Assembly (NCBI RefSeq): GCF_001651875.1
Contig: NZ_LNQB01000071.1
Span: 1 to 64,000 of the forward strand
DNA length: 64,000 bases
Source of the DNA: Sinorhizobium saheli
Lineage (GTDB): Bacteria > Pseudomonadota > Alphaproteobacteria > Rhizobiales > Rhizobiaceae
Direction of reading: 5' to 3'
Each line of letters starts with the position of its first letter. Position 1 is the stretch's first letter. The notes under the pieces were generated by a model. That model had not been told where the DNA came from. It did no database searches and saw nothing but the letters and a program-made list of their open reading frames with translations. Made by a program: the position numbers and the translations under genes. Below are positions 38,176 to 42,786 of this stretch, one piece after another.

Positions 38176-41100
38176 CTATTTCTTGAGCTGCTCCTTGAGA
38201 GCGGCGAGCTTGGCAAAGGGCGAATCCGGATCGATCGGCTTCTCCTTGCGCGGCGGACGGGCGTCGAACTTGCCGCCCGCCGGCTTGCCGCGCTCGTGCC
38301 GGTCGGCCCGATCCTTGCGCTGGCCGCCAGGACGGCCGTCCTGCGCCTTGCCCTCCTGCGGCCTGCCGTGCGCGGCGCCGGCCCGGCGACCGCCTTCGCG
38401 CGCCTCGGCCTGGCCGTGGCGCTGGCCGCCGCGGCGCTGATCCCCGTGCTGGCGGCCGCCTTGACGCTGATTGTCCTGGCGCGTTCCGGGGCGCCAGAGC
38501 AGCACGGGCCTGGCTTCGGCCGGCGCTTCCGGCGGCGTCGCGGCGACGTCCTCGCCCGCCTCGGCGGCCGGTGCCTCCGCGGCCGATGCCTCCGCGGTCT
38601 GAGCCTCTACGGCAGGCGCGTCGGCCGTCGCGGCATCGCCAGCCGCAGCTTCGCCAGCCGGGCTTTCGGCAACATCGACGTCGCTGCCCGCATCCACCTC
38701 ACCATTCTCGGCCGGCGTCGCGGCGGCGGCCTCGGTCTCGGCCGGCGCGCCGGCCTGGCTCGCGAGGAAGGCCGCGGCCTCCTCGGCCGTCGCCACGTCG
38801 GCCCGATAACCGAGACCCTTCAGGATCTCTTCCATATCGTCCGGCGTCGCGCCGAGGATGGACAGCATCGAGGTCGTGGCCATGAAACGGCGGCCGTCGT
38901 AAGCGCCGTCCGGGCGCGGCGACGTGCCCGGCTTCCACTGCAGGAGCGGACGGATGAGGTCGGCGAGACGCTCGAGGATATCGATGCGCACGGCGCGCTT
39001 GCCGAGGAAGCGGAAGCCCGCCAGCTTGTAGAAGGTGCGCTCGAAGGACGGGTCGGTGACCACCGAGGTGCGGCCGGCGGCGAGCATCGGGATAAGCTCG
39101 CCATAGCCGGGCTTGTCGAGCCCGTCGTTCTTCAGCGCCCAGAGCAGCGTGATGAGTTCCGCCGGCGCCGGCTTCAGGAGCGCGGGCAGGAAGATATGGT
39201 AGGCGCCGAAGCGGACGCCGTATTTGCGGATCGACGCGCGGCTTTCCTGGTCGAGCGACTTCACCTCGTCGGCGACGTCGCGGCGGAAAAGCACGCCGAG
39301 GTTTTCGACGAGCTGGAACGCCAGTCCCTTGGCGAGGCCCTCGAGATCCTCCGCGCGGGAAATGTCGTCGAGCGGCTTCAGGACCGTGCTGATGTGGTGG
39401 TTGACGAAGCGCTCGATGCGGGCGACCACGTGCTCGCGGGCGTTGGCCTGGAGCTGTTCGTCGGCGAGCAGGATGACGCGCGGACGCATGACGTGGTCGC
39501 TTGCCGCCAGCCGCGCCACGGGATCGCCGAGCCAGCGCACGAGACCGTCCGACGACAGCGCCAGGTCGTTGTTGCCGGCCGCATGCAAGCGGGCGGCGCG
39601 CGCCTCGAATTCCAGCGCAAGCGCCTTGTGGGCGGCGCCCTGAACGGCCTTGGCGTCCGACCCCTCGCTACCCGAGGCCAATGTGAACCGGAAACCGGTT
39701 AGCTGACCCACGTGGTGCCCCTCGACGAAGACATCACCATTCACACTGATTTCTGCTTCCAGCATCGCATTCTCTCTCAGGCGCTTCATGAGCACAGATG
39801 TCCTGCGATCAACAAAGCGTTTCGTCAACCTTTCATGTAACGCGTCGGACAACCGATCTTCGATTTCCCGCGTCTTTTCCTGCCAGTGTGTCGGATCGGC
39901 AAGCCAGCCGGGCCGATTGGACACATAGGTCCAAGTTCTGATCTGCGCAATTCGCGCCGAAAGTGTGTCGATCTCGCCATCCGTGTGGTCGGCGCGGCGG
40001 ACCTGTTCGGCCATGAAGTCCTCGTTGACCGTGCCGTGGCGAACGAGATCGGCATAGATGGTCGAAATGAGGTCCGCATGCTGTGCCGGGGTGATGCGGC
40101 GATAGTCGGGGAGGGCGCAGGCTTCCCACAGCTTTTCGACGCGCTCGGCCGTGGTGGCGACATCCACCACTTCCGGATAGCGCGCCAGATGCTCGAGCGC
40201 CTGCTGGTCGACGGCCGGCAGCGCACGCGTGAGGCCGGAAACGGCCGGTGCTGCGTCAAGGCTGTGCTTCAATGCCTTGAGCGAGGAGTAGTCCAGCGCC
40301 TTGGAGCGCCATTGCAGCACCCGCACGGGATCGAACTCGTGCGATTCGATCCGGTGCACCAACTCGTCCTCGAAGGGATCGACGCGTCCGGTCACGCCGA
40401 AGCTGCCGTCGCGGATGTGGCGGCCCGCGCGGCCGGCGACCTGGGCGAGCTCGGCCGGATTGAGGTTGCGGTACTGATAGCCGTCGAACTTCCGGTCCTG
40501 GGCGAAGGCGACGTGGTCGACGTCGAGATTGAGCCCCATGCCGATGGCGTCGGTCGCCACCAGGTAATCGACGTCGCCTTCCTGGTAGAGCGCCACCTGC
40601 GCATTGCGGGTGCGCGGCGACAGCGCCCCCAGCACCACCGCGGCGCCGCCGCGCTGGCGGCGGATGAGCTCGGCGATGGCGTAGACCTCGTCGGCCGAAA
40701 AGGCGACGATCGCCGAACGGTTCGGCAGCCGGGTGATCTTCTTCGAGCCGGCATAGAGGAGCTGCGACATGCGCGGCCGCTCGGTGACGGTGATGCCGGG
40801 CAGGAGGTGTTCGAGGATCGGCCGCATCGTCGCCGCGCCGAGGAGCAGCGTCTCGCCCCGGCCGCGCAGATGCAGGATCCTGTCGGTGAAGATGTGGCCG
40901 CGCTCGAGGTCGCCGGCAAGCTGCACCTCGTCGATCGCCACGAAGGAGGCGGTCGTCTCGCGCGGCATCGCCTCGACCGTGCAGACCGAGTAGCGGGCGC
41001 GGTGCGGGGTGATCTTTTCCTCGCCGGTGATCAGCGCGACATTGTGGTGGCCGACCTTCTCGACGAGGCGGGTATAGACCTCGCGCGCCAGCAATCGCAG

Positions 41101-41235
41101 CGGCAGCCCGATGACGCCGCTGTCATGGGCGACCATGCGCTCGATCGCGTAGTGCGTCTTGCCGGTATTGGTGGGCCCGAGCACCGCGGTCACGCCGCGG
41201 CCGCTCAGGATCATGGATTGAAAGGACAAGGTCAT
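38176..41235 (-). CDS. Suv3-like superfamily 2 RNA helicase
   Basis: 1019 residues. The helicase core occupies about residues 1-480: motif I GPTNTGKTHYAIERM, motif II DEVQ in FVAIDEVQLAGD, motif III GAATMRP, and motif VI QVAGRAGRH. It resembles the mitochondrial degradosome helicase Suv3. From about residue 840 the protein becomes low-complexity: first Ala/Glu-rich (repeats of AAEA and AETEAAAATP types), then Arg/Gly/Gln-rich (RQDNQRQGGRQHGDQRRG), ending in a short conserved SPFAKLAALKEQLKK tail. The basic tail may bind RNA. It is followed by an S4-domain gene and preceded by the GANTC-rich non-coding region that should contain its promoter. Confidence 0.88.
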   Translation of the reverse strand: MTLSFQSMILSGRGVTAVLGPTNTGKTHYAIERMVAHDSGVIGLPLRLLAREVYTRLVEKVGHHNVALITGEEKITPHRARYSVCTVEAMPRETTASFVAIDEVQLAGDLERGHIFTDRILHLRGRGETLLLGAATMRPILEHLLPGITVTERPRMSQLLYAGSKKITRLPNRSAIVAFSADEVYAIAELIRRQRGGAAVVLGALSPRTRNAQVALYQEGDVDYLVATDAIGMGLNLDVDHVAFAQDRKFDGYQYRNLNPAELAQVAGRAGRHIRDGSFGVTGRVDPFEDELVHRIESHEFDPVRVLQWRSKALDYSSLKALKHSLDAAPAVSGLTRALPAVDQQALEHLARYPEVVDVATTAERVEKLWEACALPDYRRITPAQHADLISTIYADLVRHGTVNEDFMAEQVRRADHTDGEIDTLSARIAQIRTWTYVSNRPGWLADPTHWQEKTREIEDRLSDALHERLTKRFVDRRTSVLMKRLRENAMLEAEISVNGDVFVEGHHVGQLTGFRFTLASGSEGSDAKAVQGAAHKALALEFEARAARLHAAGNNDLALSSDGLVRWLGDPVARLAASDHVMRPRVILLADEQLQANAREHVVARIERFVNHHISTVLKPLDDISRAEDLEGLAKGLAFQLVENLGVLFRRDVADEVKSLDQESRASIRKYGVRFGAYHIFLPALLKPAPAELITLLWALKNDGLDKPGYGELIPMLAAGRTSVVTDPSFERTFYKLAGFRFLGKRAVRIDILERLADLIRPLLQWKPGTSPRPDGAYDGRRFMATTSMLSILGATPDDMEEILKGLGYRADVATAEEAAAFLASQAGAPAETEAAAATPAENGEVDAGSDVDVAESPAGEAAAGDAATADAPAVEAQTAEASAAEAPAAEAGEDVAATPPEAPAEARPVLLWRPGTRQDNQRQGGRQHGDQRRGGQRHGQAEAREGGRRAGAAHGRPQEGKAQDGRPGGQRKDRADRHERGKPAGGKFDARPPRKEKPIDPDSPFAKLAALKEQLKK

Positions 41236-42060
41236 CGATCCCGGGCAGTCTCCGCAGCGCCGTCGCGTCCCTTCAGACGCACAAGGAGGCGCTGCAGCGC
41301 TTTCGATTGCATGCGGTGCGCCGGCACGCTCTCATGCGCCGGCGGGGAACAGATGCCCACGCGCCATGCCAAACGCAAGGGGCGCGGGAACCGGTCGGGG
41401 TGCCATGGCCATATCTAGCGTCCCCGTCTCGAACCTCCACCCCAATATCTGGAACAGCGATGGAACGAATCAGCGACGAATCGCTGACTCTCGTCGATTC
41501 ACTGTATGTTCACGACTAGATATAGATTTCAATATCCAGATTCGCACCAGATGCTGAATCCGGAGCCAACGAGCCTGTTCTACCGCCGCTATTTGCCTCG
41601 GGTTCCGATGCCGGCGGCCCGGCGGCTCGCAAGGATTCCGAATCCAAGAGTCTGGAATGTTTGGAAAATTTTAGCCCGGATTCGCGCTCCGACTCCGCGA
41701 AATGCGAAATGAGAATCGCCAGCCGGCGTTCCACGATGGATCGGCGCGCCCGGAGCGGAATCGCCGGCAGCACCGTTTTCCGCTTTTGTTCTCCACAAGA
41801 TGTAGATGGAAACGCGCTTTGGCGCCGCGCTTCAAATTGCAGGCAATTCGCTGGATTCGTAACGCCGGCGGCATTCACCGGAAGCGATTCATCACGGACG
41901 CGGTCGACAGAAGACGTCCTGCACGACCAGCGCGGTGACACCGCACTGGCCGCGCGCCGGATTCTCGGCCGCGTATTTGCCGGAGCTTGCCGGCGACCAC
42001 GCCTGCATCAGGGCCTCTTGAAGGGCGGCTATCGAACGATAGAACCCTACCCCCTTCCGG
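41236..42060. other. non-coding region with a dense cluster of GANTC sites
   Basis: 825 bases between the helicase start and the phbB stop. GANTC, the site of the cell-cycle methylase CcrM, occurs 16 times in 498 bases: 41467, 41478, 41486, 41496, 41539, 41556, 41634, 41640, 41648, 41679, 41691, 41713, 41758, 41854, 41886 and 41960. At about 62% GC roughly 1.7 would be expected. Several are paired as inverted repeats, such as GAATCAGCGA...TCGCTGACTC (41467-41490) and GATTCCGAATC (41634-41644). One DnaA-box-like TTCTCCACA is at 41789-41797. ORFs here have no ribosome binding site or family resemblance. Confidence 0.75.
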
Positions 42061-42786
42061 TCAGGCGAAGTACTGTCCGCCATTGGCCGAGATCGTCGAG
42101 CCGGTGATGAAGCCGGCGTCGTCGGAGGCAAGGAAGACGACGCAGCGCGCGACCTCTTCCGGTTCGCCGAGGCGGCCGACGGGGATCTGAGGGATGATCC
42201 GCTCGTTCAAGACCTTCTCCGGCACGGCCCGCACCATTTCGGTGCCGATATAGCCCGGGCAGATGGCGTTGACGGTAATCCCCTTCGCCGCCCCTTCCTG
42301 GGCCAGCGCCTTGGTGAAGCCGAGGTCGCCCGCCTTGGCGGCGGAGTAGTTGGCCTGGCCCATCTGGCCCTTCTGGCCGTTGATCGACGAGATGTTGATG
42401 ATCCGGCCGAAGCCGCGGTCGCGCATGCCCGACCAGAGCGGATGCGTCATGTTGAAGAGACCGGTGAGATTGGTGTTGATGACCTCTCCCCATTGTTCCG
42501 GCGTCATCTTGTGGAACATCGCATCGCGGGTGATGCCGGCATTGTTGACGAGGATGTCGACCGGTCCGAGGTCCGCCTCCACCTTGGCAATGCCCTCGAC
42601 GCAGGCCTGATAGCTCGACACGTCCCATTTATAGACGGGAATGCCCGTCTCCTGCTTGAAGGCCAGGGCCTTTTCGTCATTGCCGGCATAGTTCGCGGCC
42701 ACCTTGTAGCCGGCTGCCTTCAGCGCCACGGAAATCGCCGCACCGATACCGCGCGACCCGCCCGTAACCAATGCTACCCTGCTCAT
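42061..42786 (-). CDS. phbB: acetoacetyl-CoA reductase
   Basis: 241 residues, SDR family, NADPH-dependent reduction of acetoacetyl-CoA to (R)-3-hydroxybutyryl-CoA in polyhydroxybutyrate synthesis. The cofactor motif is VTGGSRGIGAAISVAL, NNAGITRDAMFHKM is typical of PhaB, and the catalytic Ser/Tyr/Lys are in INISSINGQKGQMGQANYSAAKAG. The C-terminus FITGSTISANGGQYF is diagnostic. GGGAGG precedes the ATG. It lies 112 bases downstream of phbA on the same strand. Confidence 0.95.
   Translation of the reverse strand: MSRVALVTGGSRGIGAAISVALKAAGYKVAANYAGNDEKALAFKQETGIPVYKWDVSSYQACVEGIAKVEADLGPVDILVNNAGITRDAMFHKMTPEQWGEVINTNLTGLFNMTHPLWSGMRDRGFGRIINISSINGQKGQMGQANYSAAKAGDLGFTKALAQEGAAKGITVNAICPGYIGTEMVRAVPEKVLNERIIPQIPVGRLGEPEEVARCVVFLASDDAGFITGSTISANGGQYFA

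Follow-up and report, generated by a model that had tools for sequence, protein, structure and literature searches.

A conserved GANTC-rich non-coding element upstream of a Suv3-like helicase gene in Sinorhizobium and other Alphaproteobacteria

Why does a short non-coding stretch of the Sinorhizobium saheli genome carry a crowd of GANTC (CcrM) sites, and what might read them? The first-pass annotation of our window, the whole 64,000-nucleotide stretch of DNA that was analysed, had reported such a cluster, and a recount bore it out: 16 GANTC sites lie within 498 bp (41467–41964, unstranded), 13 of them within 296 bp (41467–41762). The remaining 63.5 kb of the window hold 81 sites, and the window as a whole is depleted in GANTC (97 observed versus 376 expected from dinucleotide shuffles). 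For the 825-bp intergenic region 41236–42060, 2,000 shuffles gave a mean of 4.8 sites (sd 2.0, maximum 12) against the 16 present. The cluster is enriched about 3- to 5-fold relative to shuffles and about 25-fold relative to the density actually found outside it in the window (1.28 per kb); the roughly nine-fold excess originally proposed falls between these estimates.

Comparable crowding was not seen elsewhere in a sample from a relative. We sampled 400 kb (20 stretches of 20 kb) from contig C1 of a same-genus genome, G016, with one stretch including the locus, and found a mean of 1.69 GANTC per kb. The maximum per 500 bp was 14 at the locus and at most 5 in 18 of the other stretches. The sole other sampled stretch to reach 6 per 500 bp (L093, G016:C1:3326001-3346000) bears hemE. 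The available portion of a survey of 157 Ensifer genomes gives 0.90 to 1.83 GANTC per kb, with intergenic DNA at about twice the coding density (PMC8725594).

The sites are embedded in a defined architecture. Unit 1, about 100 bp long (41450–41551, + strand, orientation set by the GAAC repeats), was recognised by the sequence-only profile R1 (E = 1.3e-19) and by alignment with relatives. It carries GAAC-N7-GAACGAATC, repeats 11 bp apart (41452–41471, +; letters verified); GAAC-N7-GAAC is present in 26 of 26 loci and occurs a single time in the 64-kb window. Next comes the core word CGAATC (41477–41482, +), whose GAATC is invariant in 59 aligned units and in 22/22 class sequences, the invariance of CGAATC in these sets being partly a product of how the sequences were selected. 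Facing the GAAC repeats lies ATTC-N7-GTTC (41497–41511, +; letters verified), of which TTC and TGTTC recur in at least 90% of 85 units picked without using that word. A palindrome of the form CNANATNTNG, here CTAGATATAG (41516–41525, unstranded), retains C.A.AT.T.G in at least 90% of the same 85 units. It is followed by CACCAGATGCTGAATC, in which the palindrome word recurs in less regular form ahead of GAATC (41545–41560, +; GAATC in 24/24 genus sequences, majority word in the 85 units). Further right, the genus alignment revealed a genus-specific conserved block with four GANTC (AAGGATTCCGAATCCAAGAGTCTGG...; 41631–41684, unstranded). Unit 2 lies about 280 bp beyond unit 1 (41752–41823, +; R1 E = 2.0e-7 and pattern match); its GAAC repeats have decayed, with TTTGTTC (41785–41791) and the palindrome (41796–41805) kept. 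In several genus members unit 2 is intact, about 282 bp after unit 1. The inverted-repeat layout suggested at first pass is partly right, in that GAAC and GAATC words of one strand face GATTC and GTTC words.

The same plan emerges from larger sets. Eighty-five units chosen by the core pattern alone share GAAC-N7-GAACGAATC, GACGAATCG in an 11-bp step, CTGACTC, TTC-N7-GTTC and CNANATNTNG. In alignment A1, which comprises 59 of the 93 units listed, AACGAA, CGAATC, TTC and GTTC are invariant; unlike in the 85-unit set, TTC and GTTC are so by construction, as both were required in selection. As both GAACGAAGC and GAACGAAAC occur as the first repeat in A1, its conservation is not due to GANTC. Judged by its letters, this arrangement of two facing pairs of 11-bp-spaced repeats plus a palindrome looks like the site of an oligomeric DNA-binding protein. 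A search of the S. saheli genome with R1 returned four places at E up to 10, two of them below 0.1 (units 1 and 2) and the others at 0.19 and 0.34; by this search the element is one locus in its own genome.

When 40 genomes were searched at the DNA level, each of the 24 from the genus (S. saheli and 23 others) gave a match and the 16 from other families of the order gave none. Rather than being lost in close relatives, the sites are kept: 12–18 GANTC occur per intergenic region in 26 loci (24 of the genus, including all 23 other same-genus genomes, plus S. meliloti Ak57 and Rhizobium sp. NLR16a). Together these regions hold 391 GANTC in 21,683 bp (18 per kb) versus 117 in 83,867 bp of flank (1.4 per kb); one of them, L021, has no phbB on its stretch and was taken to the stretch end. 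Spacing is conserved as well, the first four core sites lying 11, 8 and 10 bp apart in 23/26 loci, Rhizobium included (L011, L016 and L023 deviate).

Is GANTC itself what is maintained? We aligned the 24 genus sequences, leaving out Ak57, and counted five-column windows with GANTC in at least half of the sequences. There were 14 such windows, versus 5 for the next commonest words of the same shape. At five of them the outer bases are kept and the middle varies: 41539 (T6, G8, C2, A1), 41648 (G13, C10), 41691 (C9, G2, T1), 41699 (A8, T5, G3; a site absent from S. saheli itself) and 41758 (A11, C6). The middle base is fixed in the other 9 of 14. Because GA and TC are kept around a free middle base at five sites, GANTC itself seems to be under selection in the genus. 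A stricter variable-middle count put GANTC at 4 windows and CANAT, a word contained in the palindrome, at 3; the test is thus supportive and not overwhelming. The nine fixed-middle windows suggest that a different reader acts there and, together with the few GANTC in distant copies described below, that the core is read by something besides CcrM.

The element extends well beyond the genus. With at most one mismatch, the pattern GAACGAATCNNNGACGAATCG was found in 190/297 family genomes and 76/109 genera, and its reversed control gave zero in every row listed. Copies number 1–4 per genome, a few kb apart and, among the places listed, nearly always on one strand (both strands in G250). A GAACGAATCNNNNNCGAATCNNNGAC scan of a genome collection (one genome per species, 84,980 species) matched at least 120 stretches. 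Informative titles among the matches listed were all alphaproteobacterial, covering Rhizobium, Agrobacterium, Mesorhizobium, Bradyrhizobium, Nitrobacter, Methylocapsa, Hoeflea, Bartonella, Brevundimonas and others; the matches listed also include two MAGs titled only 'Proteobacteria' and one record named Marinicella with the same helicase. Related units thus range over Hyphomicrobiales and are also found in Brevundimonas and other alphaproteobacterial families. A two-mismatch tally across the order (74/199 genomes) is noisy and is not used as a count here, because reversed-control matches appeared in six genomes and 2 of 10 loci (L070, L074) had no unit. Viral contigs gave no match to the pattern, and the plasmid collection gave six records. 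One of these, from Rhizobium sp. NLR16a, was considered as a plasmid origin and rejected, being the same locus adjoining the same helicase gene. The record CP090106.1 (L033) appears to be mislabelled: under the title S. meliloti Ak57 plasmid pSymB, it spans 3.7 Mb and bears the chromosomal locus.

How old, then, is the GANTC load? Among 240 class genomes, R1 matched 55 at E up to 0.1, many close to noise; besides S. saheli, 22 strong matches (E up to 3e-6) came from 14 other families. A consensus of 22 class sequences, 20 strong and two weaker, reads GAaC-N7-GaAC, cCGAATC, cTnAc, tTC and GTTCac, with 1–4 GANTC per 87 bp. Since the distant copies hold so few GANTC, the GAAC / CGAATC / TTC-GTTC scaffold, to judge from this distribution the oldest conserved feature, looks older than the GANTC load. 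Crowding extends beyond the family of S. saheli, with 12 to 14 GANTC in or near other order-level loci, L071, L072 and L260 among them. In G606 (L274), a GAACGAATC-type word occurs three times, possibly as a different dispersed repeat, and two of these copies lie apart from the helicase start.

The one constant neighbour is a Suv3-like helicase gene to the left of unit 1 (38176–41235, − strand; Pfam DEXQc_Suv3, 93 bits, plus Helicase_C). Suv3 is a mitochondrial RNA-decay helicase; to our knowledge, little is known about the control of Suv3-family helicases in bacteria. From gene numbering and synteny in S. meliloti Ak57, we take this gene to be the counterpart of SMc03877. The name mgpS is used for SMc03877 in the accessible part of a published account (PMC4941405). 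Of the 120 matches listed, 109 could be judged, and in all of these the unit precedes the helicase gene in one orientation; in the other 11 the match is at most 422 bp from the helicase-side end of the stretch. The helicase start is 48–551 bp from the unit in these 109 loci (quartiles 152, 186 and 209 bp), and the 700 bp upstream of the helicase hold 13.5 GANTC per kb versus 1.5 per kb elsewhere (99 loci among the matches listed). The helicase stands beside the unit in 28/30 family loci; the other two, L059 and L060, have no helicase nearby and weak R1 scores. At class level it lies downstream of the unit in 20 of 22 strong copies. One exception, L262, stands beside a gene named by eye as an acyl-CoA dehydrogenase, in a genome (G562) where a protein search found no helicase; L259 is the second strong copy without an adjacent helicase. 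Conversely, a helicase gene with no recognisable unit is common among class genomes (30 of 74 helicase matches inspected upstream).

On the other side, phbB (42061–42786, −; short-chain reductase families) is a convergent neighbour that is not constant, found no more than 2.5 kb away in 27 of the 71 loci whose stretch was long enough. Of the position between phbB and a helicase gene first described for the cluster, the helicase is the constant part and phbB is incidental. Within the helicase leader, 41255–41313 matches a repeat dispersed at many places in same-genus relatives, which we liken to the RIME element of rhizobia; in S. saheli, where 13 of 74 candidates were scored, the matches listed include just this locus.

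Where on the chromosome does the element lie? hemE is a marker of oriC, and we searched for it in 20 genomes. In the 18 with element and hemE on one contig (excluding G268 and G111; G002 has two hemE matches, and the one sharing the element's contig was taken), the two are 74–495 kb apart, and 101–150 kb apart in 11 of the genus. The element points toward hemE in 15 of these genomes and away in 3, which argues against both oriC and a polar barrier. The reading as oriC is accordingly not supported, with hemE 74–495 kb off and not adjacent, DnaA boxes unconserved and orientation to hemE variable; nor is that as a polar replication-fork barrier, the orientation to fork movement not being fixed. 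The one-mismatch DnaA box noticed earlier (41789–41797) did not hold up: the window contains 2 such words versus 2.4 expected, and the box is kept, with at most one mismatch, in 1 of 25 aligned genus sequences. The parS sequence is TGTTTCACGTGAAACA, and no match to it with up to 3 mismatches occurs in the window.

We favour, at about even confidence, the reading that the element is a methylation-gated cis-regulatory region of the Suv3-like helicase gene mgpS. From its architecture, conservation, helicase linkage and signs of GANTC selection, we infer protein binding, methylation sensing and control of mgpS. Its constant position ahead of a single gene points to regulation of this gene, and the individual maintenance of GANTC sites within the genus suggests a role for their methylation state. 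The first-pass proposal of a methylation-timed promoter or GANTC-sensing platform fits because the unit stands upstream of the helicase in all judgeable loci among the matches listed and five GANTC have a free middle base; it needs amending in that the oldest conserved feature is the GAAC scaffold, not GANTC. The cis-regulatory DNA would consist of one unit or several upstream of mgpS, each about 100 bp long and presenting the 11-bp GAAC repeats, the facing GTTC pair and the palindrome to one or more putative DNA-binding proteins. In rhizobia and their kin, this scaffold would have become loaded with CcrM sites, and whether these are fully, half or not methylated probably governs binding, or else what binding does at the helicase promoter. 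The accessible text of one study places GANTC methylation in Ensifer late in the cell cycle (PMC8725594). A site on the origin side of the chromosome, as in the rhizobia examined, would be replicated early and, with CcrM acting late, should stay hemimethylated longest; this period of hemimethylation would couple helicase expression to the cell cycle.

S. saheli encodes GcrA (PF07750, E = 3.3e-68, a model that is not fully specific, its control list also matching Sulfolobus). Among 28 class genomes, six had element-like upstream regions, recognised by regular expression or by eye; five of these carry GcrA and the sixth (84% complete) does not. Many of the 28 without the element also carry GcrA, and its presence does not clearly track the element. 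Against helicase control stand the two strong copies without an adjacent helicase, the frequent helicase without a recognisable unit and the lack of a consensus promoter. The sequence between and after units bears on the GANTC reading both ways. In its favour, GANTC is enriched there, with 232 in 24,266 bp (9.6 per kb) versus 104 expected from dinucleotides (4.3 per kb); against it, GTTAAC-like words, which resemble CtrA half-sites, outdo GANTC (GTNAA z = 19, TTNAC z = 15; regions in L126–L245).

The main rival, owing to the two of 22 strong class copies without an adjacent helicase, is a stand-alone chromosomal site with its own binding protein, serving replication timing, initiator titration or segregation, the helicase being a neighbour and perhaps a partner. 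We regard this as rather unlikely but worth serious consideration, and the nucleoid or segregation site among the first-pass proposals keeps some probability. It would suit the single locus of the S. saheli genome, the origin-side position seen in 18 rhizobial chromosomes and the tandem, iteron-like units. Unit-to-unit spacing is 270–274 or 281–284 bp in 57 of 95 cases and never 275 to 280 bp, the two groups being about one helical turn apart; the script behind this survey recognised no unit in 43 of 184 loci. However, the 95 values score high at many periods, and phasing over the 39 distinct spacings is not significant (best nR2 2.7, p about 0.07), so we make no phasing claim. The invariable placement of the helicase beside the unit, in one orientation, in the 109 judgeable loci among the matches listed also speaks against a free-standing site, as do the varying distance and orientation relative to hemE.

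Still less probable is that every unit serves as a divergent promoter, CNANAT being its −10, from which a small RNA is transcribed rightward. The rhizobial −10 is CTATAT, which CNANAT resembles, and the units stand in tandem, all pointing away from the helicase. But sequence beyond the unit is not conserved, and scanning the region for consensus sites turned up neither a sigma-70-type promoter nor a terminator-like site. The structured RNA once suggested for the cluster likewise found no backing: across the 59 aligned units, five pairs were predicted at an energy of −1.1, none changed on both sides, and the window gave no Rfam match at threshold and no tRNA. Fixed word spacing without covariation fits a DNA element, not an RNA. 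At a relaxed Rfam threshold, the best of four matches was the Brucella sRNA family BASRCI414 at 41925–41994 (−), with 19.4 bits against a threshold of 270 (E = 0.03), probably by chance. On the helicase side, the genus alignment conserves a weak candidate promoter for the helicase gene, TTGCGT-N17-CATCTG (41350–41378, −); TTGCGT occurs in only 11 of 137 helicase leaders of wider relatives.

We consider it very unlikely that the element is an SOS operator, with GAAC-N7-GAAC and NTTC-N7-GTTC as LexA boxes. The alphaproteobacterial LexA box is GAAC-N7-GAAC, a direct repeat of GAAC or GTTC 11 bp apart, and the element shares that repeat: the left pair of unit 1 keeps both half-sites in all 26 loci, with its single occurrence in the window. 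Unlike in LexA boxes, the half-sites are not both kept throughout. Second units do not keep the left GAAC, the first base of the right half is free, and GAAC-N7-G[AG]AC occurs in only 10 of 22 class sequences, leaving 12 without the pair. Additional fixed words, CGAATC and the palindrome, are foreign to the LexA box. A chance or compositional cluster deserves practically no credence, contradicted as it is by the shuffles, by conservation in 23/23 other same-genus genomes and by the pattern's presence in 190/297 family genomes with zero reversed-control matches among the rows listed.

Several known systems resemble the element in part. Promoters controlled by CcrM and GcrA, such as ctrA P1 of Caulobacter, carry one to a few GANTC. 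Like them, the present locus has GANTC upstream of a gene, kept in relatives, in a genome encoding GcrA, and hemimethylation could time expression; unlike them, it has 16, embedded in a fixed arrangement of other words that looks older than the crowd of GANTC sites. The gammaproteobacterial chromosomal sites crtS, datA and maoS are alike in kind, not by sequence comparison, as single conserved non-coding sites with a possible role in replication or chromosome layout, whereas the present site is tied to a helicase gene. In Agrobacterium, the available part of a report on repABC origins gives three GANTC in the promoter, three intergenic and three near the origin (PMC11514494). GANTC are grouped there too, at a replication-related control region; the present locus, in contrast, is chromosomal and has no repABC genes, and units of about 100 bp are not described for repABC in that part of the report. 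Hypomethylated GANTC promoters protected by MucR in S. meliloti show that GANTC methylation can depend on a DNA-binding protein; the accessible text names SMa1635 and SMa2245, not the present locus (PMC5172544). The likeness lies in the GANTC sites, and MucR binding here is hypothetical. A search of the open-access literature found no description of the element; transcript or methylation data for the locus may exist in print. A search by the unit's own words gave no alphaproteobacterial title among the matches listed.

On a wider and decidedly tentative view, which we think improbable as a whole, Alphaproteobacteria of several orders would own a so far unnamed, iteron-like nucleoprotein control site older than its methylation sites, which rhizobia and their kin made into a dense, often tandem CcrM sensor on the origin side. 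Its binder would read fork passage via hemimethylation and so time a Suv3-type helicase or replication. A non-coding element beside one gene in many alphaproteobacterial families implies a DNA-binding factor with an old role, as yet undescribed. With so many CcrM sites, the element is well suited to testing what reads GANTC methylation beyond the known promoters.
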